A DNA stretch of 42,924 nucleotides from Bacteroides sp. (GTDB lineage: Bacteria; Bacteroidota; Bacteroidia; Bacteroidales; Bacteroidaceae): NCBI GenBank assembly GCA_015060735.1, contig SUXX01000014.1:1-42924 (forward strand). The letters are read 5' to 3'. The notes beneath the pieces were generated by a model. That model was not told where the DNA came from. It searched no databases and saw nothing but the letters and a program-made list of their open reading frames with translations. Both the position numbers and the translations under genes were made by a program. Below are positions 24,982-42,924 of the stretch, piece after piece. Position 1 is the stretch's first letter. Each line of letters opens with the position of its first letter.

Positions 24982-24985
24982 CAAA

Positions 24986-25337: not shown

Positions 25338-26156
25338 ATGAAAAGGATTTTTGGTTTGATTGTTTGTTTTTTGGTGCTTGGTTGGGGACTTGTGGAGGCA
25401 ACAGAATCGCAGTTACAGCGTGAAAAGTCAAAAAAAGTATATTATAATGCATTCTCACACAATGATTATGAGCATGAGCGGCCTTTGTTCGATGCATTGG
25501 ATTTGGGATTTAACTGTGTAGAAGCTGATTTGTGGTTGATTGATGGAGAACTTTATGTGTCTCATGATAAGCCGGAAGTCAGCCCGGAGATTACTTTTGA
25601 GAAGTTATATTTGCTTCCTTTGGCCGAAAGGATTGCTGCAAACAACGGGAAGGTGCATCGGAAAGGGAAGAAGCCATTTTTTTTGATGATTGATTGCAAA
25701 TCAAATGGTGAAGAGATGTTGCCTGTTTTGAAGAAGAAATTGGAACCTTATCGTTATCTGTTTTGCTCATTGGAAAGTGGAAAATATAAAGAAGGAGCCG
25801 TACTTTTGTTCTTGTCCGGCGACAATCCTCGGCAAACAATTCTTTCGTCGGAGGATGGATACATTTTCCTGGATGGACGTATCAAGGATTTGGGCAAGAA
25901 CATCGATTCAAGACTGATGCCGGTTATCAGCGATAGCTATCCTAGCTACATGACATGGAAAGGCGAAGGAGAAATTCCCGAAGCCGAATTGGAAAAGATG
26001 CGAGGATACATTCACCAGGCACATAAAGAAGGTAAGCTTTTCCGCTGGTATAGTGCTCCGGATACCCCGCAATTCAAGCGTTTCTTTCTCGAAGAAGGAG
26101 TGGACTTGGTTGGTGCGGACGATTTGCAGAGCATGCATAAAGTGTTGCAAGAATAA
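25338..26156 (+). CDS. PLC/GDPD-like phosphodiesterase (exported)
   Basis: This 272-residue protein has a signal peptide (about residues 1-21) and a TIM-barrel phosphodiesterase fold of the PI-PLC/glycerophosphodiesterase superfamily. The visible catalytic pattern is His41 in SHNDYEHERPLFDAL, Glu62 and Asp64 in CVEADLWLIDGELYVSHD (with His76), an Asp in FFLMIDCKSNGE near 118, and a C-terminal LVGADDL strand. The sequence most resembles the AIM6-like branch, whose substrate is not established. It is the first gene of a mannosidase operon, 15 bases before a GH92 gene, and is followed by an alkaline phosphatase two genes on. Cleavage of a phosphodiester on a mannose glycan or an inositol-phosphate link is plausible but unproven. 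Confidence 0.75.
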   Translation: MKRIFGLIVCFLVLGWGLVEATESQLQREKSKKVYYNAFSHNDYEHERPLFDALDLGFNCVEADLWLIDGELYVSHDKPEVSPEITFEKLYLLPLAERIAANNGKVHRKGKKPFFLMIDCKSNGEEMLPVLKKKLEPYRYLFCSLESGKYKEGAVLLFLSGDNPRQTILSSEDGYIFLDGRIKDLGKNIDSRLMPVISDSYPSYMTWKGEGEIPEAELEKMRGYIHQAHKEGKLFRWYSAPDTPQFKRFFLEEGVDLVGADDLQSMHKVLQE

Positions 26157-26171
26157 TGTAAAAAAGAATAT

Positions 26172-29093
26172 ATGAAGAAAATTAACTTATTACCTTTGTT
26201 TCTAATCCTTTTGTCGGCATGTAGCATGTCACAAAAGTCGCCAATCGATTATGTCGATCCTTTCATCGGTACCGGATTTCATGGACATACTTATCCTGGT
26301 GCAACTGTTCCTCAAGGTGCGGTTCAGTTGAGTCCTGATACTCGTCGAGGAGGTTGGGATGGCTGTTCGGGCTATCATTATAGCGATTCTACCATTTTAG
26401 GTTTTTCGCATACTCACTTGAGTGGTACCGGTTGTGCCGATTTGGCGGATGTACTTCTTCGTCCGACTTCCCAGTCTGTAACTTTGGGAGGAGAAGGCGA
26501 TATCTATCAACCGGCATCGTTCTCGCATCAGAAAGAACAGGCTCGCCCAGGGTATTATTCAGTAGAACTGCTTGATGAACAAATCAAAGCCGAGTTGACT
26601 GCTACTACCTATGCCGGTATGCATCGATATACCTTTAAAGGTGGAAAGGAAGCATCCATTATTTTGGATTTGGCTCACTCCATAGCCGATTGGGAACAAA
26701 TCTATAACACGTCGGTTGAGCAGACAGGTGCTGCTGAAATCACCGGTATGCGTCATACTTTGACTTGGGTAGACAATCAATACGTTTATTTTGTGGCTCA
26801 ATTCTCCAAGCCTATTCAGAAGGTTCTTTATGTAAAAGATAATAAGGAAGTTGCTGTGGATGGTAAATTGGAAGGTTCGGATGTGCAGGCTGTCCTTTCT
26901 TTTGGAAACGAAGAAGAGATTATCGTGAAAGTAGGTTTGTCGATTGTCAGTGCAGAGAATGCTCGCGAGAATTTGGCTCACGATATGCCTGATTTCAACT
27001 TTGATGCTATCAGTCAGCAAGCTCATGCTACTTGGAATGAAGTGCTTTCTAAAGTACAAGTGAAGGGTGGTACAGAAGACCAGTTGAAGAATTTCTATAC
27101 AGCATGGTATCATGCATTGGTGGTACCGAATACCGTGAGTGATGTGAACGGACAATACCGTCGTCACGATATGTCCATAGGAACGTTGGGACAAGGCAAG
27201 AAGATGTATTCTACTTTCTCCATTTGGGATACTTTCCGTGGCTGGCATCCATTGATGACTTTGACCAATACTGACTTTGTGAATGACATGGTTCAGTCCT
27301 TTTTGAATATGTACGAAGCTACGGGAGAACTGCCTATCTGGCCACTTTCTGCCGGCGAAACGTGGTGCATGATTGGTTACCATTCGGTTTCGGTCATTGC
27401 GGATGCTTATTTGAAAGGTATTCGTGGCTTTGATGCGGAAAAGGCGTTGGAAGCCATGATTGCTTCTTCTGAAATCAACAAGAAGAATGCTGCAGAGTAC
27501 ATCCAGTACGGATATATTCCTTCCAACCGTCGTGAATCCGTATCTTGCTTGTTGGAGTATGCTTACGACGACTGGGCTATCGCACAAATGGCTAAGGCCA
27601 TGGGTAAGATGGATGTTTACGAAACATACATTACCCGTTCACAAAATTATCATCATGTATTTGATGGTGTAACCCGTTTCTTCCGTGCAAAGCGAATGGA
27701 CGGAAACTGGGAGGAAAACTTTGTACCCGAAGCTGTTGGTCGTGAATTTACCGAAGCAACTGCTTGGCAATATCGTTTCTTTGTACCACACGATGTGAAT
27801 GGTATGGTTAACTTGTTTGGTGGAACCGAAGACTTTACCCAAGCATTGGATGATTTGTTCTCAACCACCAAAGGGGTAGAAGGCCATCAGTCGGACATTA
27901 CCGGTTTGATTGGTCAATATGCCCATGGAAACGAACCGAGCCACCACATGGCTTACTTATATAATTATATCGGTCAGCCTTGGAAAACTCAGGCATGGAC
28001 ACGCCGCTTGTTGGATGAAATGTATCAGCCTACACCGGAAGGTATCAGTGGTAATGAAGACTGCGGTCAGATGTCAGCATGGTATATCTTGAGTGCTTTG
28101 GGCTTTTATCCGGTTTGTCCGGGTAGTAATGAATTTGTCTTGACTACTCCGCAATTTGATCAGGTTGATTTGAAGTTGGCGAATGGAAAGACATTGACCA
28201 TTACGGCGAACAATCCGAAGAAGAATGTCTATATTGATCAAGTAACCTTGAATGGTCAGGCCATCGATAAGAACTTCATCACTTATGAACAGTTGATGGA
28301 AGGCGGTACGTTGGCATATACCCTGGTCGACCAACCGAATACGGATCGTGGTACATCGGTTGAGGCCTTCCCTTATTCGTATACAGCAGGCAAAGTCGTT
28401 TCTATCCCTTCCATCTCAAAGGACTTGAATTTGTTTATGGATGAAATCACGTTCAGTATCGTCTCAGCTACCGAAGGTTGCCGCATTTATTATACATTGG
28501 ATGGAACAGAACCAACCGAAAAGTCGATGTTGTATGAAAAGCCAATCACATTGACAGAAAGTAAGACCATCAAGGCTAAGGCTTTCAAGGAAGGATATGA
28601 ACCGAGCCATACCTATACTGCCCAAGCTACCAAGACCAAACTTCGTCCGGCTCGTTCGGCACAAGGTGTACAGAACGGAGTGAACTACGAACATGTATTG
28701 GGTAAGTTCAGCAAGGTAGCCGAGTTTGTTCAAGCCAAGGTTGTAGATAAGGGCATCTTGCCGGAACCTTCTTTGGAAAAGGCCCAGCAGGAAGACCGTT
28801 ATGGATTCACCTTTACGGGAGTGATTCAAGTACCGGAAGATGGTGTCTATACATTCAGCGTAAAATCGGATGATGGTAGTATGCTGTATATCGACGATGA
28901 AATGGTAGTGGACAATGACGGTTCTCATGCGGCAGTAGCAGCCATGGGTAAAATACCTTTGAAAAAAGGATTCCATTCTTTCCGCTTGCTCTATTTGGAG
29001 GACTATGAAGGACAGGAGTTGAGTTGGGCTTGGAAGTTACCTTCTAAGGAGCAATTGGAACCCATTCCTGCATCAGTGTTGTATGTTAAATAA
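26172..29093 (+). CDS. GH92 alpha-mannosidase lipoprotein with Hex_C-like and PA14 domains
   Basis: This 973-residue exo-alpha-mannosidase belongs to glycoside hydrolase family 92, calcium-dependent inverting enzymes that trim mannose from N-glycans and mannans. The lipobox LLSAC places the lipid on Cys17; no acidic run follows, so a periplasm-facing location is likelier than the surface. GH92 motifs are YVDPFIGTGFHGHTYPGA, GFSHTHLSGTGCADL, GETWCMIGYHSVS, HGNEPSHHMAYLY and GNEDCGQMSAWYILSALGFYP (catalytic acidic residues). After the catalytic region (to about 735), residues about 740-820 resemble a chitobiase/hexosaminidase C-terminal domain (IYYTLDGTEPTEKS), and about 825-973 a PA14 domain (FSVKSDDGSMLYIDDEMVVDNDG). 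The linkage preferred cannot be read with certainty. Its stop overlaps the next start (TAATG). Confidence 0.92.
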   Translation: MKKINLLPLFLILLSACSMSQKSPIDYVDPFIGTGFHGHTYPGATVPQGAVQLSPDTRRGGWDGCSGYHYSDSTILGFSHTHLSGTGCADLADVLLRPTSQSVTLGGEGDIYQPASFSHQKEQARPGYYSVELLDEQIKAELTATTYAGMHRYTFKGGKEASIILDLAHSIADWEQIYNTSVEQTGAAEITGMRHTLTWVDNQYVYFVAQFSKPIQKVLYVKDNKEVAVDGKLEGSDVQAVLSFGNEEEIIVKVGLSIVSAENARENLAHDMPDFNFDAISQQAHATWNEVLSKVQVKGGTEDQLKNFYTAWYHALVVPNTVSDVNGQYRRHDMSIGTLGQGKKMYSTFSIWDTFRGWHPLMTLTNTDFVNDMVQSFLNMYEATGELPIWPLSAGETWCMIGYHSVSVIADAYLKGIRGFDAEKALEAMIASSEINKKNAAEYIQYGYIPSNRRESVSCLLEYAYDDWAIAQMAKAMGKMDVYETYITRSQNYHHVFDGVTRFFRAKRMDGNWEENFVPEAVGREFTEATAWQYRFFVPHDVNGMVNLFGGTEDFTQALDDLFSTTKGVEGHQSDITGLIGQYAHGNEPSHHMAYLYNYIGQPWKTQAWTRRLLDEMYQPTPEGISGNEDCGQMSAWYILSALGFYPVCPGSNEFVLTTPQFDQVDLKLANGKTLTITANNPKKNVYIDQVTLNGQAIDKNFITYEQLMEGGTLAYTLVDQPNTDRGTSVEAFPYSYTAGKVVSIPSISKDLNLFMDEITFSIVSATEGCRIYYTLDGTEPTEKSMLYEKPITLTESKTIKAKAFKEGYEPSHTYTAQATKTKLRPARSAQGVQNGVNYEHVLGKFSKVAEFVQAKVVDKGILPEPSLEKAQQEDRYGFTFTGVIQVPEDGVYTFSVKSDDGSMLYIDDEMVVDNDGSHAAVAAMGKIPLKKGFHSFRLLYLEDYEGQELSWAWKLPSKEQLEPIPASVLYVK

Positions 29094-30247
29094 TGAAAGA
29101 TATGAAAAAAACATTGTTGAAATTAGGAGTAGCTTGTTTGTTGCTTGGAGTAACAAGCATGGTTAATGCACAAGAAAAGGCTGCCAAACTTCACACATAC
29201 GTGATGGAGCATCCTTATGAAGTGCAACAGATTCTTCCTCCCAAAGGAAAAAAAGTAAAGAATGTCATTCTGATGATTGGCGACGGCATGAGTTTGATGC
29301 ATGTATATTCGGCATGGACTGCCAATCGCGGTAAACTCTTTTTGGACAATGCACAGGCAATCGGTCTTTCAAAGACTTATTGTGCCGATAAATTGATTAC
29401 CGACTCGGGTGCTGGTGGTACAGCCATGGCAATCGGTCAGAAAACCAAATATCACAGTGTAGGGGTGGATGTGAATGGCAATCCGCAACCTTCTTTAATC
29501 ACCTTGGCTAAGCAAAAAGGCATGTCAGCCGGTGTTGCGGTAACTTGCCGTTTGTGGGATGCAACCCCTGCCGACTTTTGTTGCCACGATGTAGACCGTG
29601 ATAATGAATATGGGATTATTGCCGACTATGTGGAGTGTGATGCCGATTATGTGGTAGGAGGTGGTGCCGAGAAGTTTGTAAACCGCCCGGACGGACGCGA
29701 CATCTTCAAGGAACTGGAAGCAAAAGGTTATCAGGTAGCCCGTAGCTGGGAAGAATGTCAAGCCTTGGAAGGTGGACGAATCTTTGCGGTAACCGAACCG
29801 AGAGATACACCGCTTCCGGCAGAAAGAGGGGATCGTTTGGCCGCATCTGCATTGAAAGGGATGGACATCATGGATAAGAACAAGAAAGGGTTTTTCATGA
29901 TGATTGAAGGTTCTCAATTGGACGACTATGGTCATTTCAATGATTTGGACCTCTTGATGCAAGAAACACACGACTTCGACCGTACCGTAGGTAAGGTGTT
30001 CGAATGGGCTGCTAAAGATGGAGAAACATTGGTGATAGTTACTGCCGACCATGAAACCGGTGGTTTGACTTTGGTGGATGGTGACTTGAGCAAAGGTGAA
30101 ATTCAATGCCGCTTCTCTACAACCAGTCACTCGGGTGTGATGGTTCCGGTATATGCCTTTGGCCCGGGAGCCGAAAACTTCACAGGAATGTATGAAAACT
30201 CGGATATATTTCATAAGATTGTTAAACTATTAAAACTTAATAAATAA
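29093..30247 (+). CDS. Alkaline phosphatase
   Basis: This exported phosphomonoesterase of the alkaline phosphatase superfamily has 384 residues. A signal peptide ends at about VNAQ. Metal-binding and catalytic motifs are VILMIGDGMSL, DSGAGGTAMAIG with the nucleophile Ser at about residue 105, MIEGSQLDDYGHFND, TADHETGG and TTSHSGVMVPVYAFGPGA. All the zinc ligands expected for a PhoA-like enzyme appear present. ATG 29093 overlaps the GH92 stop; ATG 29102 (MKKTLLKLGV) is an equally good start. Inside a glycan-degrading operon it probably removes phosphate from phosphorylated sugars released by the phosphodiesterase or mannosidases; that link is inference. Its stop overlaps the GH63-type gene by TAATG. 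Confidence 0.88.
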   Translation: MKDMKKTLLKLGVACLLLGVTSMVNAQEKAAKLHTYVMEHPYEVQQILPPKGKKVKNVILMIGDGMSLMHVYSAWTANRGKLFLDNAQAIGLSKTYCADKLITDSGAGGTAMAIGQKTKYHSVGVDVNGNPQPSLITLAKQKGMSAGVAVTCRLWDATPADFCCHDVDRDNEYGIIADYVECDADYVVGGGAEKFVNRPDGRDIFKELEAKGYQVARSWEECQALEGGRIFAVTEPRDTPLPAERGDRLAASALKGMDIMDKNKKGFFMMIEGSQLDDYGHFNDLDLLMQETHDFDRTVGKVFEWAAKDGETLVIVTADHETGGLTLVDGDLSKGEIQCRFSTTSHSGVMVPVYAFGPGAENFTGMYENSDIFHKIVKLLKLNK

Positions 30248-31854
30248 TGAAAAACACAGTATTTGTATGTTTGGTGGCTCTGATGAGCCTGTTGGCTGTC
30301 ACTGCTCGGGCACAGAGCTGCGGTAATGACAGTATTTATAAGATTCCTTATAAGAATACGTATGTAAAGTCTACATTGGCTGCTGATAATGAATTCCGCA
30401 CCATGCGTCCTAATTATATGGAAATCCCTACTTTCGAACAAGCTAAAAAGATTCTTCCGGTACCCATCTGGGCAGGTCACGACAAGGAAGTAGAAATGTA
30501 TTGGAAAGCATGGGAAATCGGTGTGGGTAATATCCGTAATCCGCAACCGGGTTCTGGTTTTGTAAGCCCTTATATTGATACTGCTTATAATGGCAACATT
30601 TTTATGTGGGACTCGGCTTTCATCTTGATGTTTGCCCGTTATGGCGAACGTTTCTTCCCATTCCAGAAGACTTTGGATAACTTCTATGCAAAGCAACATC
30701 CAGACGGCTTTATCTGTCGCGAAATCATGGCGAACGGTGCCGACTGTTTCGAACGTTACGACCCAACCAGCACTGGCCCGAACTTGTTGCCATGGTGCGA
30801 AATGGTCTACTATCATCAGTTTGGAGATACCGAACGTTTACACAAGATTTTCCCGGCACTTTGTGGCTACTATGAATGGCTGAGATTGAACCGTACTTGG
30901 CGTAACGGTACTTACTGGACTAGTGGTTGGGGTACAGGTATGGACAATATGCCACGTGTAAAGAGCGAATATAATCCTATTTACAGCCACGGTCACATGA
31001 TTTGGTTGGATACTAACTTGCAGCAGATTTTCACAGCCGGTTTGTTGTTGGAACTCGGTTTCTATACAGAACGTTGGCAAGAAATTGAAACCTTGGAAGA
31101 TGAAGCCAAGATGTTGAAGAAGTATGTCCGTGAAAATTTGTGGGATGAAAAGACTGGTTTCCTCTATGACCAATATGCAGATGGCTCTTTGTGTACAACC
31201 AAGGGTATCGGTGCATTCTGGGCATTGCATGCCGATGTCTTGACAGACGACCAATTGAAGCGTTTGGTAGCCGAATTGGATAATCCGGAAACTTTCAAGA
31301 GACCTTTCCGTGTGCCATCATTGGCTGCTAACCATCCTCGTTACAAAGAAAATGGCCGCTATTGGCAAGGTGGTATTTGGCCGGGTACCAACTACATGAT
31401 TATGCGTGGTTTGATGGATAAGGGATTCCGCAAGCAAGCTCGCGAAATCGCTTTGAGCCATTACGACCAAATTTTCCAGGTATACAAGAAGACCGGTACT
31501 TTCTATGAATACTATGCTCCGGAAGCTGCTGAACCGGGATTTATGGCTCGCGATAACTTTATCGGTTGGACAGGTTTGGCTCCAATTGCTGAATTTATTG
31601 AGTTCATCATTGGTATCCGTGGTGATTATCCTACCAAGACCATTGTATGGGATGTGAACTTGACAGAAGCAAACGGTATTGAACGTTATCCTTTCGGTCC
31701 GGAAGGCAATATCAGTTTGAAGGCGGCTGCCCGTCGCTCGGCTACAGAAAAGCCACGTATTGAAGTAGATTCAAATATTCCGTTCAAGTTGGTTGTACGT
31801 TACGGGGATAAGGAAGAAACTTATCAAGTAAATGCTGGTAAATCCAATTATTAA
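30247..31854 (+). CDS. GH63-type (MGH1-like) glycoside hydrolase
   Basis: This 535-residue exported enzyme has a signal peptide (about 1-22, ending ARAQ) and an (alpha/alpha)6 barrel of the GH63/mannosylglycerate-hydrolase-like group. Typical segments are FMWDSAFILMFARYGERF (about residue 119), GTGMDNMPR with candidate acid Asp233, YWQGGIWPGTNYMIMRG near 373 and TFYEYYAPE with candidate base Glu421. GH63 enzymes include processing alpha-glucosidase I, which removes the glucose cap of newly made N-glycans, and bacterial enzymes acting on mannosylglycerate or glucosides, so the substrate is open. It sits between an alkaline phosphatase and a ROK kinase with overlapping or close spacing. Confidence 0.72.
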   Translation: MKNTVFVCLVALMSLLAVTARAQSCGNDSIYKIPYKNTYVKSTLAADNEFRTMRPNYMEIPTFEQAKKILPVPIWAGHDKEVEMYWKAWEIGVGNIRNPQPGSGFVSPYIDTAYNGNIFMWDSAFILMFARYGERFFPFQKTLDNFYAKQHPDGFICREIMANGADCFERYDPTSTGPNLLPWCEMVYYHQFGDTERLHKIFPALCGYYEWLRLNRTWRNGTYWTSGWGTGMDNMPRVKSEYNPIYSHGHMIWLDTNLQQIFTAGLLLELGFYTERWQEIETLEDEAKMLKKYVRENLWDEKTGFLYDQYADGSLCTTKGIGAFWALHADVLTDDQLKRLVAELDNPETFKRPFRVPSLAANHPRYKENGRYWQGGIWPGTNYMIMRGLMDKGFRKQAREIALSHYDQIFQVYKKTGTFYEYYAPEAAEPGFMARDNFIGWTGLAPIAEFIEFIIGIRGDYPTKTIVWDVNLTEANGIERYPFGPEGNISLKAAARRSATEKPRIEVDSNIPFKLVVRYGDKEETYQVNAGKSNY

Positions 31855-31865
31855 TAAGGAATGCC

Positions 31866-32825
31866 ATGAAAAATTACGTAATAGCTTGTGATTTAGGTGG
31901 TACCAATACCGTGTTTGGCGTAGTTGATAAGGAAGGGAATGTATTGCATCAAACTTCTTTTAAAACCCAGACTTATCCGAATCTTTCGGATTTTGTCAGC
32001 CGTTGTGGAGAAGCCATCCGTTTCTTGCTAGAAAAGATTGGAGGGACAGAGACGGTGAAAGCCATTGGCATCGGAGCACCGGATGTGAATTATTGGGATC
32101 GTACTATTGAGAATGCAACGAACTTGCCTTGGAAGGGTGTTGTTCCATTGGCTGAATTATTGGAACAGGAAATTTCACTTCCTGTTCGTATTACTAATGA
32201 TGCCAAGGCAGCCGCTTTGGGAGAAATGCTATATGGTGCTGCAAGGGGAATGAATGATTTCATTATGCTTACTTTGGGTACAGGTGTAGGCAGTGGTATC
32301 GTTGTAAATGGCAAATTGGTTTATGGCCGTAAAAGTTTTGCCGGCGAATTGGGACATGTATCTATACGCCCGGAGAGTGGACGTCCTTGTCCTTGTGGTC
32401 GTAAAGGATGTTTGGAAACATACTGCTCGGCTACAGGAGTTGCTCAAACAGCTCGTGACTTATTGGCATCGTATACAGATAGTCCATTGCATGAGATGAA
32501 TCCGGCTGATATTACTTCTAAGGATGTATATGATGCAGCTATGCAAGGCGATGCTTTGTCCTGTGAAGTTTTCCGTTTGACAGGAGAGTGGCTAGGTGAA
32601 GCTTGTGCTGATTTTGCAACTTTCTCTGACCCTGAAGCATTTATTTTCTTCGGAGGGTTGACAAAGGCTGCCAACTGTTTTATGCCTCATCTGATAGAGA
32701 CTTATCAAAAAACAGTGTTTGATAATTATAAGGGTACTGCCAAATTCTTAATTTCTCAGTTGGAAGATGGTAATGCAGCTTTATTGGGTGCTGCCGCGTT
32801 GGCTTGGTTGGATGAAATTGAATAA
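31866..32825 (+). CDS. ROK-family sugar kinase
   Basis: This 319-residue cytoplasmic kinase of the ROK family phosphorylates hexoses (glucose, mannose, fructose or N-acetylated sugars). It has the ATP-binding CDLGGTNTVFG loop, catalytic Asp in RITNDAKAAALGE (Asp112), the phosphate motif TLGTGVGSGIV, His164 in GELGHV, and a complete zinc motif CPCGRKGC at residues 175-182. There is no DNA-binding domain, so it is an enzyme, not a repressor. In this operon it would phosphorylate the mannose or glucose released by the hydrolases. The substrate is not readable from sequence. Confidence 0.88.
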   Translation: MKNYVIACDLGGTNTVFGVVDKEGNVLHQTSFKTQTYPNLSDFVSRCGEAIRFLLEKIGGTETVKAIGIGAPDVNYWDRTIENATNLPWKGVVPLAELLEQEISLPVRITNDAKAAALGEMLYGAARGMNDFIMLTLGTGVGSGIVVNGKLVYGRKSFAGELGHVSIRPESGRPCPCGRKGCLETYCSATGVAQTARDLLASYTDSPLHEMNPADITSKDVYDAAMQGDALSCEVFRLTGEWLGEACADFATFSDPEAFIFFGGLTKAANCFMPHLIETYQKTVFDNYKGTAKFLISQLEDGNAALLGAAALAWLDEIE

Positions 32826-32842
32826 AAATTTAAATAAAAAAA

Positions 32843-34303: not shown

Positions 34304-34315
34304 AATGGTGAAAAT

Positions 34316-34348
34316 AAAAAAGGAGGAATTTGATTTCCTCCTTTTTTT
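34316..34348 (+). terminator. Terminator of mannosidase operon A
   Basis: AGGAGGAA (34321-34328) pairs with TTCCTCCT (34335-34342), extended by A-T pairs, with a 6-base loop and a long T-tract. Confidence 0.85.
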
Positions 34349-34377
34349 GTTTTTATATCTAAATTATTGTAAGTTTG
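34346..34377 (+). promoter_or_regulatory. Promoter of operon B
   Basis: TTTG (34346-34349) at the end of the terminator T-tract is followed after 20 bases by TAAGTTTG (34370-34377), matching the Bacteroidota consensus. The GH92 start is 23 bases downstream. Confidence 0.7.
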
Positions 34378-34400
34378 CATATCGTAAAAATAATAATACC

Positions 34401-36632
34401 ATGAAACGCATGCTTCTTTCATTTTGGGCTGTTTCTCTAGCCTTGGCTATGGCATATGCCTCTCCTCAACAGAAACTTCTTACTCGTTATGTAGACCCAT
34501 TTATTGGCACAGATTATGTTGGACATACGTATCCGGCTGCCACTTTACCTTTTGGTATGGTGCAAGTCGGCCCAGACAACTTTCCTAAATGGACGTGGGA
34601 TTATTGTGCCGGTTATAACTTTGATTCAGATTTTCTCCGGGGATTTTCACATACCCATCTCAGCGGTACAGGATGTGCCGACATGGGAGATGTACTGTTC
34701 ATGCCGGTTACTGGTGAAGTACCTTTCGTTCACGAATCGGAAGAAAAAAGCTACGGTTCGCACTATTCGCACAAAACTGAGGCTGCTTGGCCGGGGTATT
34801 ACGGAGTGCATCTGACCGATTATAATATCAAAGTGGATTTGGCAGCTACTCGGCGGGCAGCATATCATCGTTATCAATACCCTCGCCACGAACAATCGGG
34901 TATTCTTATCGATTTAGAACATGGCATCAACGATCAGGTTATCGAAAGTTTTGTCCGTGTTGTGGATTCTCAAACCGTGGTAGGCTTCCGTCGCTCCAAG
35001 GGTTTTGTCAAAGATCATCAATATTATTTCTATGCACGTTTTTCGAAACCGTTCGAACAGGTTACTACTTATGTAGACGGTAAAACCGGAATATCAAGCG
35101 ATGTAAAAGGGAAGGCTGTAAAGATGTTGCTTCGCTTTGCTACTGAAATGGGAGAAAATGTGGACATCAAGGTCGGACTTTCTACAATCAGTACGGAGGG
35201 AGCCAAGCATAATGTGGAAACCGAAATTCCGGTGTGGGGGATTCAGAAGGTAATTCGTGAAGCAGAAGAAACATGGCATAGCTATTTGAGCCGTATTGAG
35301 ATGGAAGAACTCACAGAAGGACAGAAAGTATCGTTTTATACTTCATTATATCATTCACTTATCATGCCGAATCTGGTGACAGACATAGATGGTCAGTATG
35401 TAGGTTGGGATCATAAGCCCCATCATTGTGAGGAAGGTGAACTTTTTACCAACTTCTCACTGTGGGATACCTATCGTGCACAACACCCGTTCCTCAATCT
35501 GATGTATCCGGAAATGAATAGTGCGATGATTCGCTCCATGCTTGAAAAATATCGCCAGACAGGTTTATTGGTTACCAATGAATATGGTTTGTGTGAAACC
35601 TGGTGTATGATTGGAAACCATGCAGTGAATCCGATAGTGGATGCCTATCTGAAAGGTGACCGTTCTTTCGATGCCGAATTGGCTTATGAGGCAGTGAAAA
35701 AATCGATGACTCATGATCATAATAAAGCCGATTGGACTAAATACAATCAATATGGTTATTTCCCATACGACGATAGTTATATCGAAAGCGTATCGCGTAC
35801 GTTGGAATCATGTTACGATGATTATTGCGTAGCCATGATGGCTAAAGCTATGGGAAAGATGGCTGATTATAGGTTCTTCTTAAAACGTGCTGAAAATTAC
35901 CGTAACTTGTTTGATAAAGAAACTGGATTCATGCGTGCCCGCGATACTCAAGGACAATGGTATGAACCATTCAACCCGGCTGCCCTTATCACTCCAACGC
36001 CTAACAAACGTCGTGATTATACGGAAGGTAATGCTTGGCAATGGACTTGGCATGTGCAACACAATCCGGAAGGTTTGATTAAATTGTTCGGAAATAAGCA
36101 GGCCTTTGTTGCTAAGCTGGATTCTTTATTCCAACAAGACCCCAGCAAAATTCCGGGTGCTGAAGAAATTCCAGATGTAACAGGGCTTATCGGACTTTAT
36201 TCACACGGAAACGAACCAAGCCACCATGTCGCTTATCTTTATCCTTACGCGGATCGTCGCGACCGTACGGCCGAGATTGTTCGTCGTGTATTCGATGAGT
36301 TTTATCTCGCCTCACGTGATGGTCTCTGTGGTAATGATGATTGTGGACAAATGTCAGCCTGGTATATGTTCTCCGGAATGGGGTTCTATCCTGTAGATCC
36401 GGTTTCTGGCCAATACGTGTTCGGTGCTCCTCAGTTTAAGTTTATGAAGTTATCGCTTCCGAACGGCAAATCATTGGAGATAAAGGCTAACAATATCAGT
36501 AAAGAAAATCTGTACGTGAAATCTATCCGTTTTAATGGTAAATTATTAAAGGGACGTACTATCAGTTACGAAACCATTATGCAAGGCGGTGTACTGGAAT
36601 ATGACATGACACACGAACTGATAAAGAAATAA
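34401..36632 (+). CDS. GH92 alpha-mannosidase (periplasmic)
   Basis: This is a second GH92 exo-alpha-mannosidase, 743 residues, without the extra C-terminal domains of the first. The start ATG 34401 gives a signal peptide (MKRMLLSFWAVSLALAMAYA); an in-frame ATG at 34305 lies before the terminator and promoter and is rejected. GH92 motifs are YVDPFIGTDYVGHTYPAA, GFSHTHLSGTGCADMGDVL, CETWCMIGNHAVNPIVDAYLKG, HGNEPSHHVAYLYPY and GNDDCGQMSAWYMFSGMGFYP. No lipobox is seen, so it is probably a soluble periplasmic enzyme. Differences from the first enzyme near WTWDYCAGYNF suggest a different linkage preference. It is first in operon B, 6 bases before a ROK kinase. Confidence 0.93.
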   Translation: MKRMLLSFWAVSLALAMAYASPQQKLLTRYVDPFIGTDYVGHTYPAATLPFGMVQVGPDNFPKWTWDYCAGYNFDSDFLRGFSHTHLSGTGCADMGDVLFMPVTGEVPFVHESEEKSYGSHYSHKTEAAWPGYYGVHLTDYNIKVDLAATRRAAYHRYQYPRHEQSGILIDLEHGINDQVIESFVRVVDSQTVVGFRRSKGFVKDHQYYFYARFSKPFEQVTTYVDGKTGISSDVKGKAVKMLLRFATEMGENVDIKVGLSTISTEGAKHNVETEIPVWGIQKVIREAEETWHSYLSRIEMEELTEGQKVSFYTSLYHSLIMPNLVTDIDGQYVGWDHKPHHCEEGELFTNFSLWDTYRAQHPFLNLMYPEMNSAMIRSMLEKYRQTGLLVTNEYGLCETWCMIGNHAVNPIVDAYLKGDRSFDAELAYEAVKKSMTHDHNKADWTKYNQYGYFPYDDSYIESVSRTLESCYDDYCVAMMAKAMGKMADYRFFLKRAENYRNLFDKETGFMRARDTQGQWYEPFNPAALITPTPNKRRDYTEGNAWQWTWHVQHNPEGLIKLFGNKQAFVAKLDSLFQQDPSKIPGAEEIPDVTGLIGLYSHGNEPSHHVAYLYPYADRRDRTAEIVRRVFDEFYLASRDGLCGNDDCGQMSAWYMFSGMGFYPVDPVSGQYVFGAPQFKFMKLSLPNGKSLEIKANNISKENLYVKSIRFNGKLLKGRTISYETIMQGGVLEYDMTHELIKK

Positions 36633-36638
36633 AGAATC

Positions 36639-37601
36639 ATGAAAAATCTGATAGGAATTGATATAGGCGGCACCAAGTGTGCTGTCACATATGGTCGTTG
36701 TGAGGGTAGTTCTGTCGAATTGGTAGATAAACTTCGGTTTGATACGACTCATGTGCAAGAAACACTTGGAAACCTTTTGGACACAACAGCCCAATTGATG
36801 AAACGTCACGGTTTGACGCCTGAAAATGTGAGTGCTATCGGTATCAGTTGTGGTGGTCCATTAGATAGCAAACGTGGGATAATACTTTCACCACCTAATC
36901 TGCCGGGTTGGGATTCTATTGAGATTGTGAAATTATTTCAGGATCGTTTCTGTATACCTGCTGCTATACAGAACGATGCCAATGCTTGTGCATTAGCTGA
37001 ATGGACTTTTGGTGCCGGAGTAGGTACGCAAAACATGATATTTTTGACTTTCGGTACGGGACTGGGAGCGGGGTTGATATTAAATGGTAAACTATATGCC
37101 GGTACTAATGATAACGCCGGTGAAGTAGGGCATGTGCGATTAAGTGATTACGGCCCAGTTGGCTATGGAAAAAGCGGCTCCTTCGAAGGATTTTGTAGTG
37201 GAGGAGGTATTCGTCAGCTTGCCATTAGCAAAGCCAAGGAACAATTGCAAATGGGGTTGACAGTGAGTTGGTGTCCCAATGGAGATGTAGAAAGCATAGA
37301 TGCTCGAATCGTAGCTGAGGCTGCCCGTGCAGGTGATGAATTGGCTCTTGCTGTTTATCGTGACTCTGCTTTGCAACTCGGCCGAGGATTGGCTTTCCTT
37401 GTGGACATTCTTAATCCCGAAAAGATTGTCATCGGTAGCATTTATACTCGTTGCGAAGATCTCATGGCACCTTATGTTGCAGAAGTATTGGAACGCGAGG
37501 CTCTGCCTTTAGCTAACGCTGTCTGTCAGGTTGTTCCGGCAGTTTTAGGAGAAACAATTGGAGATTATGCAGCTTTGTCTGTGGCGGCAGCTCATTCATG
37601 A
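36639..37601 (+). CDS. ROK-family kinase lacking the zinc motif
   Basis: This is a second ROK kinase, 320 residues. It has the ATP loop GIDIGGTKCAV, catalytic Asp in IQNDANACALAEW (Asp113), the TFGTGLGAGLI loop and His155 in GEVGHV. The usual Cys-x-Cys-Gly-x-x-Gly-Cys zinc site is replaced by a Gly-rich stretch (residues about 161-178, YGPVGYGKSGSFEGFCSG). ROK kinases without this site exist, for example among N-acetylmannosamine or allose-type and mannokinase groups, so specificity may differ from the first kinase. It lies between a GH92 and a GmhA-like gene with 6- and 15-base spacing, implying one transcript. The substrate is unknown. Confidence 0.85.
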   Translation: MKNLIGIDIGGTKCAVTYGRCEGSSVELVDKLRFDTTHVQETLGNLLDTTAQLMKRHGLTPENVSAIGISCGGPLDSKRGIILSPPNLPGWDSIEIVKLFQDRFCIPAAIQNDANACALAEWTFGAGVGTQNMIFLTFGTGLGAGLILNGKLYAGTNDNAGEVGHVRLSDYGPVGYGKSGSFEGFCSGGGIRQLAISKAKEQLQMGLTVSWCPNGDVESIDARIVAEAARAGDELALAVYRDSALQLGRGLAFLVDILNPEKIVIGSIYTRCEDLMAPYVAEVLEREALPLANAVCQVVPAVLGETIGDYAALSVAAAHS

Positions 37602-37616
37602 TTAATGATTCATCTA

Positions 37617-38198
37617 ATGAAAGAACAAATCATAGCGAATAGTCTTGCGGAAGCCCGCGATACATTAGAAAGATTCTTAGCCCATCCTCATACGATAAAC
37701 AGTATCGGTGAAATGGTAAATGTCATGTCGGCAGCTTTAAAACAGGGAGGTAAAATTTTAAGTTGTGGTAATGGTGGTTCTTTATGCGATGCTATGCACT
37801 TTGCAGAAGAATTGACCGGACGATTTCGTAAGAATCGACGTCCATTACCTGCTATGGCCATCAATGATCCTGCTTACCTGACTTGTACAAGCAACGATTT
37901 TTCTTATGAAGAAACTTTTTCCCGTTGGGTAGAGGCTTTTGGGTGTCCGGGGGACGTTCTGTTGGGAATTAGCACTAGCGGAAACTCTGAAAATGTATTA
38001 CGGGCAGTCCGTATGGCACATGAAAAAGGATTGAAAGTTATAGCTTTGACTTGCGAAAGTGATAATCCTCTTTGTCGGGAAGCCGATGTATCTGTCTGTG
38101 CTCCTTGTTCTCGCTATTCAGATCGTATACAGGAAATCCATATCAAGGTTATTCACATAGCTATTGAGGCGTTGGAGACAGAAATGGGTTTTGAATGA
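37617..38198 (+). CDS. gmhA: GmhA-type SIS-domain sugar-phosphate isomerase
   Basis: This 193-residue protein closely resembles E. coli phosphoheptose isomerase, which converts sedoheptulose 7-phosphate to D-glycero-D-manno-heptose 7-phosphate. Shared segments, from memory, are GGKILSCGNGGSLCDAMHFAEELTGR, SNDFSYEETFSRWVEA, GDVLLGISTSGNSENVLRA and DRIQEIHIKVIHIAIE, which include the zinc and catalytic residues. The ATG 37617 (MKEQIIANSLAEA) matches the E. coli start and length (192); ATG 37605 would add four residues. It is last in operon B, an unusual place for an LPS-heptose gene, beside a ROK kinase. It may act on another manno-configured sugar phosphate here. Confidence 0.85.
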   Translation: MKEQIIANSLAEARDTLERFLAHPHTINSIGEMVNVMSAALKQGGKILSCGNGGSLCDAMHFAEELTGRFRKNRRPLPAMAINDPAYLTCTSNDFSYEETFSRWVEAFGCPGDVLLGISTSGNSENVLRAVRMAHEKGLKVIALTCESDNPLCREADVSVCAPCSRYSDRIQEIHIKVIHIAIEALETEMGFE

Positions 38199-38402
38199 TT
38201 AGACAATTTTCTCGCAAACAACTATTTCTGTTCCCCGATATACTACCACAATCTTGTGTAGGGTAGTGGTGCCGATATGGCGTCGAACCACTTTGCTTGC
38301 GGTATAGCGATTAGCTTGGGCAAATGCTGTATTGTAGAGGTCGTATTTTCCATATGTGTTATCTGAATCCAATGAGAAACTGGAGATATAAAGGAGAAAC
38401 AA

Positions 38403-38436
38403 AAAAATCCCTGCTCCAAGTGGAGCAGGGATTTTT
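38403..38436. terminator. Two-way terminator between operon B and susD
   Basis: A perfect 15-bp stem (38403-38417 with 38422-38436, 4-base loop AAGT) is flanked by T-runs on both strands, so it ends operon B and the SusCD transcript. The 269-base gap between the two operons otherwise holds a minus-strand reading frame (38199-38441) discussed in the findings. Confidence 0.9.
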
Positions 38437-38467
38437 ATCATAAATAAACTTTGTTCAAAGCGGATGA

Positions 38468-40090
38468 TTAATAACCCGGGTTCTGAGTTAAGTTCGGGTT
38501 GCGTTGGATTTCATTTAATGAAAGCGGCCACAACAAGTCTGAATCCTTAAATGTTCCACCTGAACCATTCTGTGCACCTACCAAGTTTACATATGTAACT
38601 TTACCCTTTTCGGTAGCATCAACTACAGGGAATTTACCTGTACGAACGCAGTCATCCCAAATCTTGAATTCTAATGGGAATTCACGAAGACGTTCGGTCC
38701 AAACTGCTTCAATGAAAGCTTCCTTAGAAAGTCCTTGCAATTCTGTTGCGATTTGAGCTTCAGTCTTACCTTCCATGTTTGCACGAGCCTGAACTTTAGC
38801 CAAATAACCGGCTGCTTCAGCAGTTACACCTTCTGTCTGTGCAATAGCTTCTGCACCGTACAGCAAAGCTTCTGCATAACGCCATACATCACGGTCCTTT
38901 GCACCACGGCCTGAAGAAAGTACAGCTTGTTCATCATACCAATACCAGCAACCTGCCCACAAGTATTCACCTGTTGTGGCATCCTTATCTGCACTCCAAG
39001 TTAAGCCAGATTCAGGGTGAGTGTATTCCCAGTGGAAGAACTGATTAGGTTGGATACGCATATCATTAGCTTCATAGATATTCAAGAACTGGTTTGAAGG
39101 AGTAAATACACGTTCAAAAATAGAATATGTACCGAAAAGACCTGTAGCCTTAGTATCAAATGCATAAGTCGGCCACCAACCACCATTAGAGATAGTCGTG
39201 TTAAATTCATATGCATAAATAGTTTCAGCCAAACCATCTTCCTTACGAAGGGTATTGTAAGCTGTTTCGTAACGAGTTGCATCGAAGTTATTTACATCGA
39301 ATGCTGCATTGTGAGGAGTCAAGCCATGAGCAGAAGAATTGATGACAGCCTTTACTGCAGAAGCTGCATTTGAATAATCACCTTGATACATGTACACTTC
39401 AGCCAACAACATTGAAGCAGCAGCACTAGGAACTCTCATGCCATTCTCAGCTTGTGTACCAGCTGGCAATCCTGGGATAGCATCCTTCAAATCGCTTACG
39501 ATAGCAGCCAAAACTGTTGCTTTCGGAGAACGTTCCAATTGCATTTCACTTGCGTCTACACCATATACATCAGTATAGAATGGGATATCGCCCCACATCT
39601 TAACCATTGCAAAGTAGTTCCATGCACGGAAGAATTTTGCTTCAGCAATCATTTGTGACTTAGTAGCATCGCTGTCAAAGTCCACTTCTGGAGCTGACTT
39701 AAGAACCATATTAGCAGAGTTGATGGCACGATAACAAGCATCCCACAAATCATCCATAGATTTTGAAATAATCTGTTCGTTACCTTGTCTGGTCAACTTA
39801 CGAGCATATTCACAAATAGACTCCTGACCTTCGTAAATGTTCTGGAAATAACCTGTCAACATGCTGTTAACAGTTGAAATATTACCCATATATGCAGAAC
39901 CTGCACCTGTCAATTTATTAGGAGCACCGGTACGATACAAATAGTTCACAGCCTGCTCTATCTGAATTTGATCTTGGTAGAAGAGATTGGATGTCATTGT
40001 TGATTTTGGTTCTTCATCCAAGAATGAGTCACATGCACTGAAGCCGATAAGGCATGCACATGCCATCATTGAGGTTAATATCTTTTTCAT
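38468..40090 (-). CDS. SusD/RagB-family glycan-binding lipoprotein
   Basis: SusD proteins are surface lipoproteins that bind the target glycan and close over a SusC transporter. The 540-residue protein has lipobox GFSAC (Cys20) followed by DSFLDEEPKS, an acidic surface-export context, and the SusD N-terminal pattern (SNLFYQDQIQIEQAVNYLYRTG). Next are TPR-type helices (AEAKFFRAWNYFAMVKMWGDIPFYT) and the typical C-terminal region ending LRWPLS-like: DLLWPLSLNEIQRNPNLTQNPGY. It lies 33 bases downstream of the susC-like gene and ends at a two-way terminator shared with operon B. The glycan bound is inferred from the neighbouring mannosidases, not visible in the protein. Confidence 0.94.
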   Translation of the reverse strand: MKKILTSMMACACLIGFSACDSFLDEEPKSTMTSNLFYQDQIQIEQAVNYLYRTGAPNKLTGAGSAYMGNISTVNSMLTGYFQNIYEGQESICEYARKLTRQGNEQIISKSMDDLWDACYRAINSANMVLKSAPEVDFDSDATKSQMIAEAKFFRAWNYFAMVKMWGDIPFYTDVYGVDASEMQLERSPKATVLAAIVSDLKDAIPGLPAGTQAENGMRVPSAAASMLLAEVYMYQGDYSNAASAVKAVINSSAHGLTPHNAAFDVNNFDATRYETAYNTLRKEDGLAETIYAYEFNTTISNGGWWPTYAFDTKATGLFGTYSIFERVFTPSNQFLNIYEANDMRIQPNQFFHWEYTHPESGLTWSADKDATTGEYLWAGCWYWYDEQAVLSSGRGAKDRDVWRYAEALLYGAEAIAQTEGVTAEAAGYLAKVQARANMEGKTEAQIATELQGLSKEAFIEAVWTERLREFPLEFKIWDDCVRTGKFPVVDATEKGKVTYVNLVGAQNGSGGTFKDSDLLWPLSLNEIQRNPNLTQNPGY

Positions 40091-40123
40091 TGTTTAATTC
40101 TTGTTTAATTTATTAGTAAATCA

Positions 40124-42924
40124 TTAGAATGATACATTAACACCGAATGTAAATGTTCTAGCTCTTGGATAAGAGAAGAATGCCAAGTTCTGACCGAATT
40201 GGTTAGTACCTTGTGAAGTTGCTTCAGGGTCGAAACCTTCGAACTCATCCGAGCAAATCAAGAACAAGTTGTTAGCAGAAGCATACAAACGCAAAGCAGA
40301 CAAGCCAAGAGGTTCAATCACCTTAGAGTCGAATGTATAACCCAACTGAAGCATGTTCATACGGAGGTAAGAACCATCAACTACCCATGCAGAGTCGTTC
40401 ATTGAATCCTGACCAGACTTAGGAGCAATGAAGATTGCCTGTTGCATAGTTGTTGGATTGGTACCGTCATAAGCATCATAAAGAATGTTGTCCAAACCGT
40501 TTGTCATACCGAAACGGTCGTATGTAGAGTGATAGAACTGTTGAGTAGTTTCAACACCCAATACAAACTGCATATCTACTGTCAAGTCGAAATTCTTGTA
40601 ACGGAAGTTGTTGATCCAGCTACCTGTCCAGTCTGGAGTACCTTTACCCAAAATAGACTTGTTAGCTTCACGCTTAGCACGACCAATCTTCTTTTGTTCA
40701 CACAAACCATTCTGATAATCTTCTACAGTCCATACGCCCAAACGCTTGTAGCCATAGAATGCACCCATTGATTCACCTACACGCAAGATCGCATTAGCAC
40801 CTGATACGAAACCAATTTGTTCGATATCTGCATTGGTGTCACCCAACGCCAAGATTTCGTTCTTATTGTAGTTAGCACTCAATGTAGAGCTCCAGCTGAA
40901 ATCTTCAGTATCGAATGGACGACCTGAAATCATGATGTCGAAACCTTGGTTACGTACAGAACCGATATTCTTATAAATAGAAGTAAAACCTGTTGAGTGA
41001 GGAACCGGACAGTCGAGCAACAAGTCGGTAGTCTTCTTGTTATAGTAAGATACATCGAATGTCAAACGGTTTTGCCACAAGCCCAATTCAACACCGAAGT
41101 CGATTGTTGCAGTCTTTTCCCACTTCAAATCTTGGTTAGCCAACGAACTCATGTAAGCATAAGGATTACGTGCATCGTCCAGCAACAATGTACCTGAACC
41201 AATACGACCCAATGAACGGTATACACCGATTTCAGAGTTACCGGTCAAACCGTAAGAACCATGAACTTTCAAGTTACTGATAGTTTGGTTGTCAATCAAC
41301 CAAGATTCACGAGAAACATTCCATGCCAAACCTACTGAAGGGAAGAACGCATACTTGTTACTTTCACCGAACTTAGAAGAACCATCATAACGACCGGTAG
41401 CGGTTACAGAGTAACGATCTTTGTAGTTATACATCAAACGCAAGAAGTATGAGTTCATTGCCCAACGAGTCCATTCCGATTCCGGAGATGAAGGATTGGT
41501 ACCTGCACCCATGTTGTTGTCTTCAAAGAAGTCATCTGAGAAACCTTCTGTATACGAACGGTTACGTTGGTAAACGCGTTCCTGCCAAGATAGACCAAGC
41601 ATTGCGTTCAAACGATGGTCATCGTTGAAAGTCTTGTTGTAAGTCAAGTAGGTTTCTTCTTGCCAATAAGTTGTACCGTAATGAGTATAATCAGCCCAAC
41701 CATTAGGCATAGAGATATTATTCAATGTGATTGAAGAATAACCTCTGTATTCACGGTTAGAGTGGTCGATACCAAACTGAGTCTTCAAATCCAAACCTTC
41801 CATCAAATGGAATGTCAAAGCTGCATTACCGAAAATCTTTGTGTTGTAATTTCTACGCTTTTGCAAATCCAAAATCATAACAGGGTTAGACATACCTTCC
41901 AAACCAGAGAAGCTTGGAGTTGCAGCTGTAGTATATTTGCCATCATACTTCACCGGTAACCAAGGTACCATTTCAATTAATGTACGACGAGCATCCTGTC
42001 CACCACCAGTTTCAGGACTATAACGTCCCCAAGTGTGATTCACCATCAAGTTTACAGAAGTCGACAACCACTTAGTTGGCTTAGCATCGTATGCAATCTT
42101 GCCGCTGATACGCTTGCTGTAAGTGTTGTTAACAACACCTTGTTGGTCAGTATAGTTCAAGAATGCACCCATAGATGAGTTACCGCTAGCCTGCTGGATA
42201 TTCAACTGATGGTTGTGAGAAACAGCTGTACGGGTAGCTTCATCTTGCCAATTAGTGTCATAGATCGGGTTACCGTTAGAATCGAAGAAGCGTCTGTCGC
42301 TGAAATAGTCGTTTGCCCAGTCTGTTGAATAACCAGCATCGTACCATTTGTTAGCATTTTCAATACCAATTTTGTAAGCTTCCACCCATTCCTGAGCGTT
42401 CATGGTATCCATCTTACGAGCCATAGAAGCAACGCTTACAGAACCTTGATAAGAGATTTGAGTACCGTCGCCACCCTTCTTACCACGCTTGGTAGTTACC
42501 ATGATAACACCGTTAGCACCACGAGCACCGTAGATAGCAGTTGCAGAAGCATCCTTCAATACTTCCATTGATTCGATGTCGTTCGGGTTTACCAAGTAGA
42601 AGTCTTCCATTACCACACCGTCCACTACATACAATGGGTCTGAAGAAGCATTGATGGTAGACTGACCACGGATAATAACGCGGCTAGCTTGTGCACCCGG
42701 CTGAGAAGAGTTAGAGAAGATGTTTACACCGGCAGCCTTACCACGCAATGCATCCAATGCACTAAATTCCTGACCTTTGATCAAGTCTTCACCTTTGGCT
42801 ACAGAGATAGAACCGGTAACGTCTGACTTACGCATCACACCGTAACCTACTACTACCAATTCGTCCAAAGCCTGAGTGTCTTCGGTCAAAGTGATGTTCA
42901 AGGCTTGACCGTTCCATGCTACTT
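40124..42924 (-). CDS. SusC/RagA-family TonB-dependent transporter, 5' end outside window
   Basis: This is a partial gene; 933 codons lie in the window and the reading frame stays open to the edge (VAWNGQALNITLTEDTQ). The missing part should hold the signal peptide and most of the N-terminal carboxypeptidase-like extension. Visible are the end of that extension, the motif LDELVVVGYGVMRKSDVTGSIS, the plug domain (LRGKAAGVNIFSNSSQPGA, VIIRGQSTINASSDPLYVVDGV, VLKDASATAIYGARGANGVI) and a 22-strand-type barrel ending in FTFGVNVSF. It imports glycan fragments with energy from TonB-ExbBD; an ExbBD-TonB module lies at 2.4-4.4 kb. It pairs with the SusD lipoprotein downstream. Substrate inferred from neighbours only. 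Confidence 0.95.
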   Translation of the reverse strand, partial: VAWNGQALNITLTEDTQALDELVVVGYGVMRKSDVTGSISVAKGEDLIKGQEFSALDALRGKAAGVNIFSNSSQPGAQASRVIIRGQSTINASSDPLYVVDGVVMEDFYLVNPNDIESMEVLKDASATAIYGARGANGVIMVTTKRGKKGGDGTQISYQGSVSVASMARKMDTMNAQEWVEAYKIGIENANKWYDAGYSTDWANDYFSDRRFFDSNGNPIYDTNWQDEATRTAVSHNHQLNIQQASGNSSMGAFLNYTDQQGVVNNTYSKRISGKIAYDAKPTKWLSTSVNLMVNHTWGRYSPETGGGQDARRTLIEMVPWLPVKYDGKYTTAATPSFSGLEGMSNPVMILDLQKRRNYNTKIFGNAALTFHLMEGLDLKTQFGIDHSNREYRGYSSITLNNISMPNGWADYTHYGTTYWQEETYLTYNKTFNDDHRLNAMLGLSWQERVYQRNRSYTEGFSDDFFEDNNMGAGTNPSSPESEWTRWAMNSYFLRLMYNYKDRYSVTATGRYDGSSKFGESNKYAFFPSVGLAWNVSRESWLIDNQTISNLKVHGSYGLTGNSEIGVYRSLGRIGSGTLLLDDARNPYAYMSSLANQDLKWEKTATIDFGVELGLWQNRLTFDVSYYNKKTTDLLLDCPVPHSTGFTSIYKNIGSVRNQGFDIMISGRPFDTEDFSWSSTLSANYNKNEILALGDTNADIEQIGFVSGANAILRVGESMGAFYGYKRLGVWTVEDYQNGLCEQKKIGRAKREANKSILGKGTPDWTGSWINNFRYKNFDLTVDMQFVLGVETTQQFYHSTYDRFGMTNGLDNILYDAYDGTNPTTMQQAIFIAPKSGQDSMNDSAWVVDGSYLRMNMLQLGYTFDSKVIEPLGLSALRLYASANNLFLICSDEFEGFDPEATSQGTNQFGQNLAFFSYPRARTFTFGVNVSF

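Follow-up and report, generated by a model that had tools for sequence, protein, structure and literature searches.

Phosphoesterases among alpha-mannosidases in a Bacteroides operon: a probable route to phosphorylated mannosides

Contig C27 of a Bacteroides sp. assembly (2.45 Mb, 81% complete) was analysed over its whole length of 42924 bases, here called the window. An operon at 25338-34303 places a putative phosphodiesterase and an alkaline phosphatase among alpha-mannosidases, which raises the question of what substrate would call for both activities. A first-pass annotation of the same DNA had proposed a phosphorylated mannose glycan, such as a glycosylphosphatidylinositol (GPI) anchor glycan or phosphomannan. 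The gene content of the operon, its intact catalytic residues, its likely limits, and the conservation and repeated fusion of its parts in other Bacteroidales were here used to weigh that proposal. They make it likely that the six genes form a mannoside utilisation system dedicated to an alpha-mannose glycan bearing phosphate ester or diester groups.

Enzymes of the six-gene unit

The six genes follow one another on one strand, at most 17 bases apart:

25338..26156, + strand: PLC, GDPD-fold phosphodiesterase (fold search, conserved residues; signal peptide by eye)
26172..29093, + strand: GH92a, alpha-mannosidase with CHB_HEX_C and PA14 tails (Pfam; lipoprotein-like signal by eye)
29093..30247, + strand: ALP, alkaline phosphatase of PF00245 (Pfam; signal peptide by eye)
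30247..31854, + strand: GH63/MGH1-like (alpha/alpha)6 glycosidase (PF22422, 123 bits; signal peptide by eye)
31866..32825, + strand: ROK1, sugar kinase (PF00480; no signal peptide by eye)
32843..34303, + strand: GH125 (PF06824, 585 bits)

Pfam matches were obtained where the first-pass annotation had placed its families, namely GH92 twice in the stretch (604 and 574 bits), GH125 (585 bits) and ALP (PF00245, 207 bits). The GH63/MGH1-like enzyme, two ROK kinases and an SIS isomerase, which it had left unnamed, are also encoded there. GH125 is a family of exo-alpha-1,6-mannosidases.

The PLC matched no Pfam or NCBIfam model at 1e-3, hence no Pfam GDPD model, and no PDB chain by sequence; a Rhodopirellula relative does match PF13653. 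The best fold matches of its AlphaFold model (pLDDT 91) were GDPD, GlpQ and sphingomyelinase D (E ~1e-6), at a TM of ~0.5 that makes this a superfamily-level match only, and its identity to the 34 best solved fold matches was 10-17%. Residues H41, N42, D43, E62, D64 and H76 were invariant across 36 aligned sequences, and H41, E62, D64 and H76 were kept in 56 of 60 aligned domains, the remaining 4 being partial. The conserved His/Glu/Asp/His set has a role in GDPD enzymes. The modelled TIM-barrel fold and this site point to membership of the GDPD superfamily, with which the PLC has the fold and the residue set in common, though not a Pfam match; the PLC/GDPD-like phosphodiesterase of the first-pass annotation was borne out to that extent.

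The five catalytic positions of ALP (Asp, Ser, Asp, His, His) were conserved in 28 of 30 rows, which are all the rows with a residue there. For the GH63-like enzyme, D233 and E421 were present in 27 of 27 aligned rows; the closest solved chain by sequence was 2z07 (E 4e-9), and the structure model, built from 11 sequences, reached a pLDDT of only 60. A few rows in these catalytic-position alignments are duplicate contigs.

Conservation and fusion across Bacteroidales

A second genome set of 393 Bacteroidales genomes, the window's own included, was drawn with identical settings. Matches were found to the PLC in 18 genomes, to the GH63-like enzyme in 16, to ALP in 274 and to GH92a in 52 (E 1e-240 or better). 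The GH92a survey, which scored the top two GH92 candidates of each genome, yielded a full-length member of the GH92a clade (at least 1124 bits) in 12 of the 393 genomes. These were cleanly split from the rest, as the 42 further GH92 places scored at most 844 bits, 4 of them aligning past residue 940. A phosphoesterase (ALP, PLC, calcineurin-like MPP or EEP) stood beside GH92a in all 12 clade loci. ALP was found in 10 of the 12 stretches, MPP in 9, PLC in 8 (once as a 119-aa piece), EEP in 7, the GH63-like enzyme in 10 and GH125 in 5. By genome, the partners of GH92a were:

G000: PLC, ALP, GH63, GH125
G094: EEP, ALP, GH63, GH125, MPP
G163 and G386: EEP, fused PLC-ALP, MPP, GH63
G231: PLC-ALP-MPP in one open reading frame (ORF), GH63, ROK
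G307: ALP, GH63, MPP
G321: PLC, GH63, GH125, EEP, ALP
G290: EEP, GH63, PLC; MPP, ROK and ALP further on
G263: PLC piece, MPP, GH63, GH125, ALP, ROK
G382: fused PLC-ALP, GH63, MPP
G220: EEP only
G152: fused MPP-EEP (593 aa), GH125

PA14-type tails are present on several MPP proteins, according to Pfam in L078 and to profiles in the others, and the one MPP searched had no PDB match by sequence.

As controls, the 15 GH92 ranking next were taken, less those of G138 and G404; these 13 (44-50% identity; L196-L208) were screened with the same profiles, and none had a phosphoesterase beside it; several of these stretches are shortened by contig ends. Pfam on 26 control neighbours returned GH2 mannosidases, EamA transporters, GH20 and others, and none of the four phosphoesterase folds; one SurE gene, two places away in L203, was not counted as a partner. 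The difference between 12 of 12 and 0 of 13 gives a Fisher p of 1.9e-7, a guide only, since the genomes are not independent draws. Beside its GH92, control L200 encodes (4742-6661) a protein in which a glucosamine-6-phosphate isomerase domain is joined to a PIG-L de-N-acetylase domain.

The other GH92 genes of the window's own genome were judged too weak a control. The assembly holds 17 GH92 genes, 15 of them on contigs C64, C49, C61, C79, C23, C33, C44 and C93, and eight of the nine own-genome stretches taken (L084-L092) hold these 15. Two of the stretches, L084 and L089, carry phosphoesterases beside GH92, and reliance was therefore placed on the 13 GH92 from other genomes. L084 has two tandem EEP genes (12549-14319) beside two GH92; for each EEP the top PDB match is 3g6s, and 4c1r, the EEP of the Bacteroides thetaiotaomicron yeast-mannan system, is matched as well. 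L084 may perhaps be a second phospho-mannose locus. In L089 a Metallophos-domain gene (10355-11488) directly follows an alpha-1,2-type GH92. The co-occurrence across Bacteroidales that the first-pass annotation had suggested searching for was thus found. Among the four families it had grouped, the phosphoesterases do accompany GH92a, while GH125 is optional and the GH63-like enzyme is the more constant partner.

The same association was seen from the other genes. The first genome set gave 32 loci with a PLC relative in named genomes, the nearest being that of a goat-colon Bacteroidaceae metagenome-assembled genome (L010, 90% identical), which has the identical six genes in identical order. ALP lies nearby or is fused in 12 of the 32 (in L041 as a fragment only), and the GH92a clade and the GH63-like enzyme are present in 10 each; a few loci in the collection are the same contig twice (L019/L065; L035/L066/L161) or overlap (L083/L105). 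The typical order in Parabacteroides is SusC-SusD-GH92a-ALP-GH63 followed by an MPP-PLC fusion (L023, L024, L026, L028, L033). Close GH63-like enzymes (at least 59% identity) were found in 11 genomes, 10 of which have ALP in the stretch; the 12-kb stretch of G410 (L155) has no phosphoesterase label. If 393 genomes of 3.5 Mb are assumed to hold 300-400 ALP genes, an ALP falls in a given 60 kb with a probability of 0.013-0.017, so that about 0.15-0.2 would be expected among 11 and the observed 10 are far from chance. Across the 393 genomes, 7 have both a close GH63-like enzyme and a PLC, and 4 and 11 have one alone (p 3.5e-8). Distant GH63-like enzymes (41-47%) had no ALP, PLC, MPP, EEP or GH92 label in any of 5 stretches, two of which are shorter than 12 kb.

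Phosphoesterases in these loci are also repeatedly fused. In 10 loci a calcineurin-like domain precedes PLC (with broken frames in L041), in 2 ALP precedes it (L029, L030), and in 8 ALP follows it (L070, L075, L078-L083); one of these 8, L079, has a 1128-aa ORF that unites PLC, ALP and MPP with a tail of PA14 type. An MPP-EEP fusion occurs in one locus (L195, 6933-8711), as a single ORF beside a PA14-clade GH92. On the best PLC tree the fusion labels need 8 changes; the well-supported branches alone force fewer (MPP-PLC 2, PLC-ALP 2, ALP-PLC 1), some of which may be losses, and a fully supported split separates the PLC-ALP fusions from MPP-PLC and ALP-PLC. Because diesterase and phosphatase have been joined more than once and in opposite orders, the fusions fit two successive steps on one substrate, which would pass from diester to monoester to free phosphate.

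A route through the six-gene unit can be proposed on this basis; the cellular location of its steps (from signal peptides read by eye), the sequence in which they occur and the type of compound acted on are predictions. In the periplasm, the PLC would open a sugar phosphodiester and leave a phosphomonoester, ALP would then remove the phosphate, and GH92a, GH125 and the GH63-like enzyme would trim the alpha-linked sugars. In the cytoplasm, the ROK kinase would phosphorylate the released hexose.

Flanking units and candidate substrates

The remaining features of the stretch are:

34316..34347, + strand: terminator-like hairpin with a T-run, closing the six-gene unit (-22.4 kcal/mol, fold z = -6.1)
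34346..34377, + strand: Bacteroides-type promoter-like match TTTG...TAAGTTTG, upstream of GH92b (consensus match only)
34401..36632, + strand: GH92b (Pfam; start moved from 34305 to the ATG preceding a signal peptide, by eye)
36639..37601, + strand: ROK2, sugar kinase (Pfam)
37605..38198, + strand: SIS-domain isomerase, GmhA-like (252 bits against a cut-off of 265)
38403..38436, no strand assigned: terminator-like hairpin between convergent units (stable when folded on either strand)
38468..40090, - strand: SusD-like lipoprotein (Pfam)
40124..42922, - strand: SusC-like TonB-dependent transporter, truncated by the contig end (ORF list, Pfam)

The first-pass annotation had taken this region as one polysaccharide utilisation locus and placed its four named families in an operon. 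These families do lie in a single unit at 25338-34303, whereas the whole stretch is not a single operon, given the hairpin and promoter-like match at 34316-34377 and the SusD/SusC genes on the other strand. Since a hairpin with a T-run and a promoter-like match follow GH125, and L010 has a hairpin-like repeat immediately 3' of its GH125 as in the window (read by eye), GH92b, ROK2 and the SIS gene probably form a second unit and 25338-34303 is probably the one that matters. Promoter-like matches in the window numbered 7, against 2.0 expected in shuffles; none lies directly upstream of 25338. The SIS protein, paired with a ROK kinase behind GH92b, may perhaps take part in sugar-phosphate isomerisation. 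SusC and SusD adjoin the mannosidase units and run convergently behind the hairpin at 38403-38436; in many relatives they lie directly upstream of GH92a. By Pfam, the 11 ORFs of 25338-42922 include no PUL (polysaccharide utilisation locus) regulator of the hybrid two-component system (HTCS), extracytoplasmic function (ECF) sigma/anti-sigma or SusR type, the contig ending at 42924. Elsewhere in the window, a tRNA-His lies just upstream of the operon (24908-24982), and Fimbrillin-like and Mfa2-like anchor genes form a fimbrial pair at 17233-19508.

The linkage specificity of the GH92 enzymes bears directly on the substrate. In an alignment with BT3990, 7ZGM, BT3130 and BT3965, GH92a retains the catalytic acid Glu common to these enzymes, and its clade is set apart by a TEATA[WY] acid motif (17 of 19 rows) and the PA14 tail. 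The signature of alpha-1,2 GH92 enzymes is a His-Glu pair in the +1 subsite (PMC5930347, in excerpt). This pair (His584-Glu585 in BT3990 numbering) is absent from GH92a, from GH92b and from all 19 distinct GH92a-clade sequences aligned (the window included, the members of G220 and G152 left out), and is present in three of the own-genome GH92 aligned (L084, L086, L089). Some clade rows have a lone Glu or His at the second column of the pair; as the loop is gapped in the alignment, such single residues should not be over-read. An alpha-1,2 assignment was therefore rejected for both enzymes, and with it the alpha-1,2-mannosidase step that the first-pass annotation had built into its GPI argument. 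The GAHDIQ loop of BT3965 (alpha-1,4), a motif that is a reading of this alignment, is not found in GH92a either, and its loop is also unlike that of 7ZGM, an alpha-1,3 GH92 (PMC9522356, in excerpt). As the loop resembles none of the three types, no linkage was assigned. Uncapping of mannosyl-phosphate by GH92a in the manner of CcMan5 was set aside as well, since GH92a keeps the catalytic acid Glu that CcMan5 reportedly lacks.

What therefore stands of the first-pass substrate proposal is the action of phosphoesterases with alpha-mannosidases on a phosphorylated mannose glycan, which the conservation and repeated fusion across Bacteroidales support well. As to which glycan, a tentative candidate is a GPI-anchor glycan or a related inositol-phospho-mannoside, on which the PLC would cut the inositol or ethanolamine phosphodiester, MPP, EEP and ALP would clear phosphate and ethanolamine-phosphate, GH125 would cut alpha-1,6 linkages, and GH92a and the GH63-like enzyme would take the rest. 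The small, exo-only enzyme set and GH125 in 5 of the 12 loci suit such a glycan, as does the mixture of phosphoesterase types that most of the 12 contain, which would fit several phosphate sites on the glycan; several phosphoesterases per locus may also be interchangeable tools. Two analogies at superfamily level, neither amounting to proof, lean the same way: GH92 alpha-1,4-mannosidases have been suggested to serve GPI cores (PMC5930347, in excerpt), and ethanolamine-phosphate on eukaryotic GPI is trimmed by metallophosphoesterases such as PGAP5 (PMC10704324, in excerpt). Against it, neither GH92 has the alpha-1,2 pair, the GH92a loop is unlike that of BT3965, a 79% relative of which is encoded elsewhere in the genome, in the C61 cluster, and neither a glucosaminidase nor an inositol gene was identified. 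Two 91-92% relatives of BT3965 (L103, L104) have no phosphoesterase label in their neighbourhood by profiles. No PUL using GPI is described among the literature matches listed, in their titles and abstract starts.

Phosphomannan or a mannosylphosphorylated N-glycan (Man-alpha-1-P-6-Man), fungal or bacterial, is possible too, if short of probable; the PLC would split the diester, ALP or EEP would remove Man-6-phosphate, and the mannosidases would follow. Both GH92 and GH125 are families known from mannan, the genome holds many GH92 genes, and, among core-locus EEPs, the one tested (from L078) gave 152 bits to PDB 4c1r, named a mannosyl-6-phosphatase (best match 3g6s, 242 bits). On the other side, the operon has no alpha-1,2-type GH92, and Pfam found no GH76, GH38, GH99, GH18 or GH85 among the 11 ORFs, so that polymeric yeast mannan in particular is disfavoured by the lack of an endo-mannanase in the stretch. 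Another candidate would be a bacterial phosphorylated polysaccharide like the A-LPS of Porphyromonas gingivalis (PMC13086638).

Several observations weigh against a dedicated phospho-mannoside system of any kind. Relatives of the PLC are not confined to mannosidase loci: no ALP is seen in 20 of the 32 PLC loci (some contigs being short), the nearest kin of the window PLC after L010 (L012, L011, L013, L027) have neither ALP nor GH92, and PLC is missing from 4 of the 12 GH92a stretches. No glycosidase label accompanies PLC and ALP in four SusCD loci (L070, L071, L075, L083), or is present at L162, where the best-matching ALP of G152 adjoins SusC/D. The window itself has only PLC and ALP, MPP and EEP occurring in relatives, and the EEP and Metallophos genes of L084 and L089 mean that the phosphoesterase link is not exclusive to the GH92a clade. 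The window SusD shares 21-27% identity with those compared from GH92a loci and fits none of the several groups into which the diverse SusDs of related loci fall; an SusD of the L153 type was not found in the 81%-complete genome by a search that had no positive control.

A further reading is phosphate scavenging, in which PLC and ALP would be a phosphate-acquisition pair placed by mannosidases and acting on ordinary organophosphates. It is a real rival because a published low-phosphate SusCD system has an ALP with a GDPD domain, namely Flavobacterium PUSII, with PusCD beside PhoA1 (PF00245 and PF13653) and induction at low phosphate (PMC8115612, in excerpt); the four SusCD loci above also speak for it. 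We nevertheless consider it unlikely in view of the phosphoesterases in every GH92a-clade locus and no control, the tight layout with GH92, GH63-like, GH125 and ROK genes, and the separation of PUS clusters from SusCD clusters with carbohydrate enzymes (PMC8115612, in excerpt). The SusDs connect the two kinds of locus. That of L083, beside PLC-ALP in a same-genus genome, is 68-73% identical to those of the GH92a loci L152, L153, L023 and L028, and the L070 SusD shares 49-50% identity with the SusDs of L154 and L072; the SusDs of L078, L081 and L194 form their own group (77-80% within, 25-28% to the L083 group). We read these links as one phospho-ligand family that may feed two kinds of locus, scavenging being the alternative. 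That the operon is a neutral alpha-mannoside PUL with idle phosphoesterases as passengers, as the wealth of GH92 genes and the frequently solitary PLC relatives might suggest, is very improbable, since the catalytic residues are retained and loci of this one type have repeatedly fused four phosphoesterase folds or exchanged them for one another.

Relation to known systems

Eukaryotic cells encountered in the gut commonly display mannose glycans that bear phosphate (GPI anchors, phosphomannans, inositol-phospho-glycolipids). Descriptions of phosphodiesterases able to remove zwitterionic phosphate groups from sugars are few (PMC10704324, in excerpt). If the dedicated phospho-mannoside reading is true, the locus family would be a set of sugar-specific phosphodiesterases and phosphatases useful in glycan analysis, and which gut bacteria feed on phospho-mannose glycans would become directly testable. 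A bolder version, which we regard as doubtful, is a widespread Bacteroidales system for GPI-anchor glycans or related inositol-phospho-mannosides, made up of a PA14-tailed GH92, a GH63-like enzyme and up to four unrelated phosphoesterase folds, some in one polypeptide.

Two described systems come close. The Flavobacterium PUS combines a SusCD-type transporter and a PhoA with a GDPD-type domain and responds to low phosphate (PMC8115612, in excerpt); the window locus resembles it in these parts and differs in having mannosidases and a ROK kinase within the unit, so that GH92, GH63-like and GH125 enzymes are not set apart from the phosphoesterases. The B. thetaiotaomicron PULs for yeast alpha-mannan and high-mannose N-glycan have SusCD-linked GH92 and GH125 (PMC5930347, in excerpt), and here both families lie near a SusCD pair. 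The window locus type differs from them by its PA14-tailed GH92 clade, its GDPD-fold, ALP and calcineurin-like enzymes and its GH63-like partner. Neither GH76 nor GH99, either of which would mark a yeast mannan PUL, is among the ORFs of the stretch; compared with the fuller B. thetaiotaomicron gene lists, the stretch is set apart by its lack of GH76, GH38 and GH18. Among the literature matches listed for phospho-mannoside PULs (titles and abstract starts, most subscription papers lying outside the scope), no description of this locus type was met. Taken on its genes, the operon pairs mannosidases with phosphoesterases, and a phosphorylated mannoside as its substrate gains strong comparative support.

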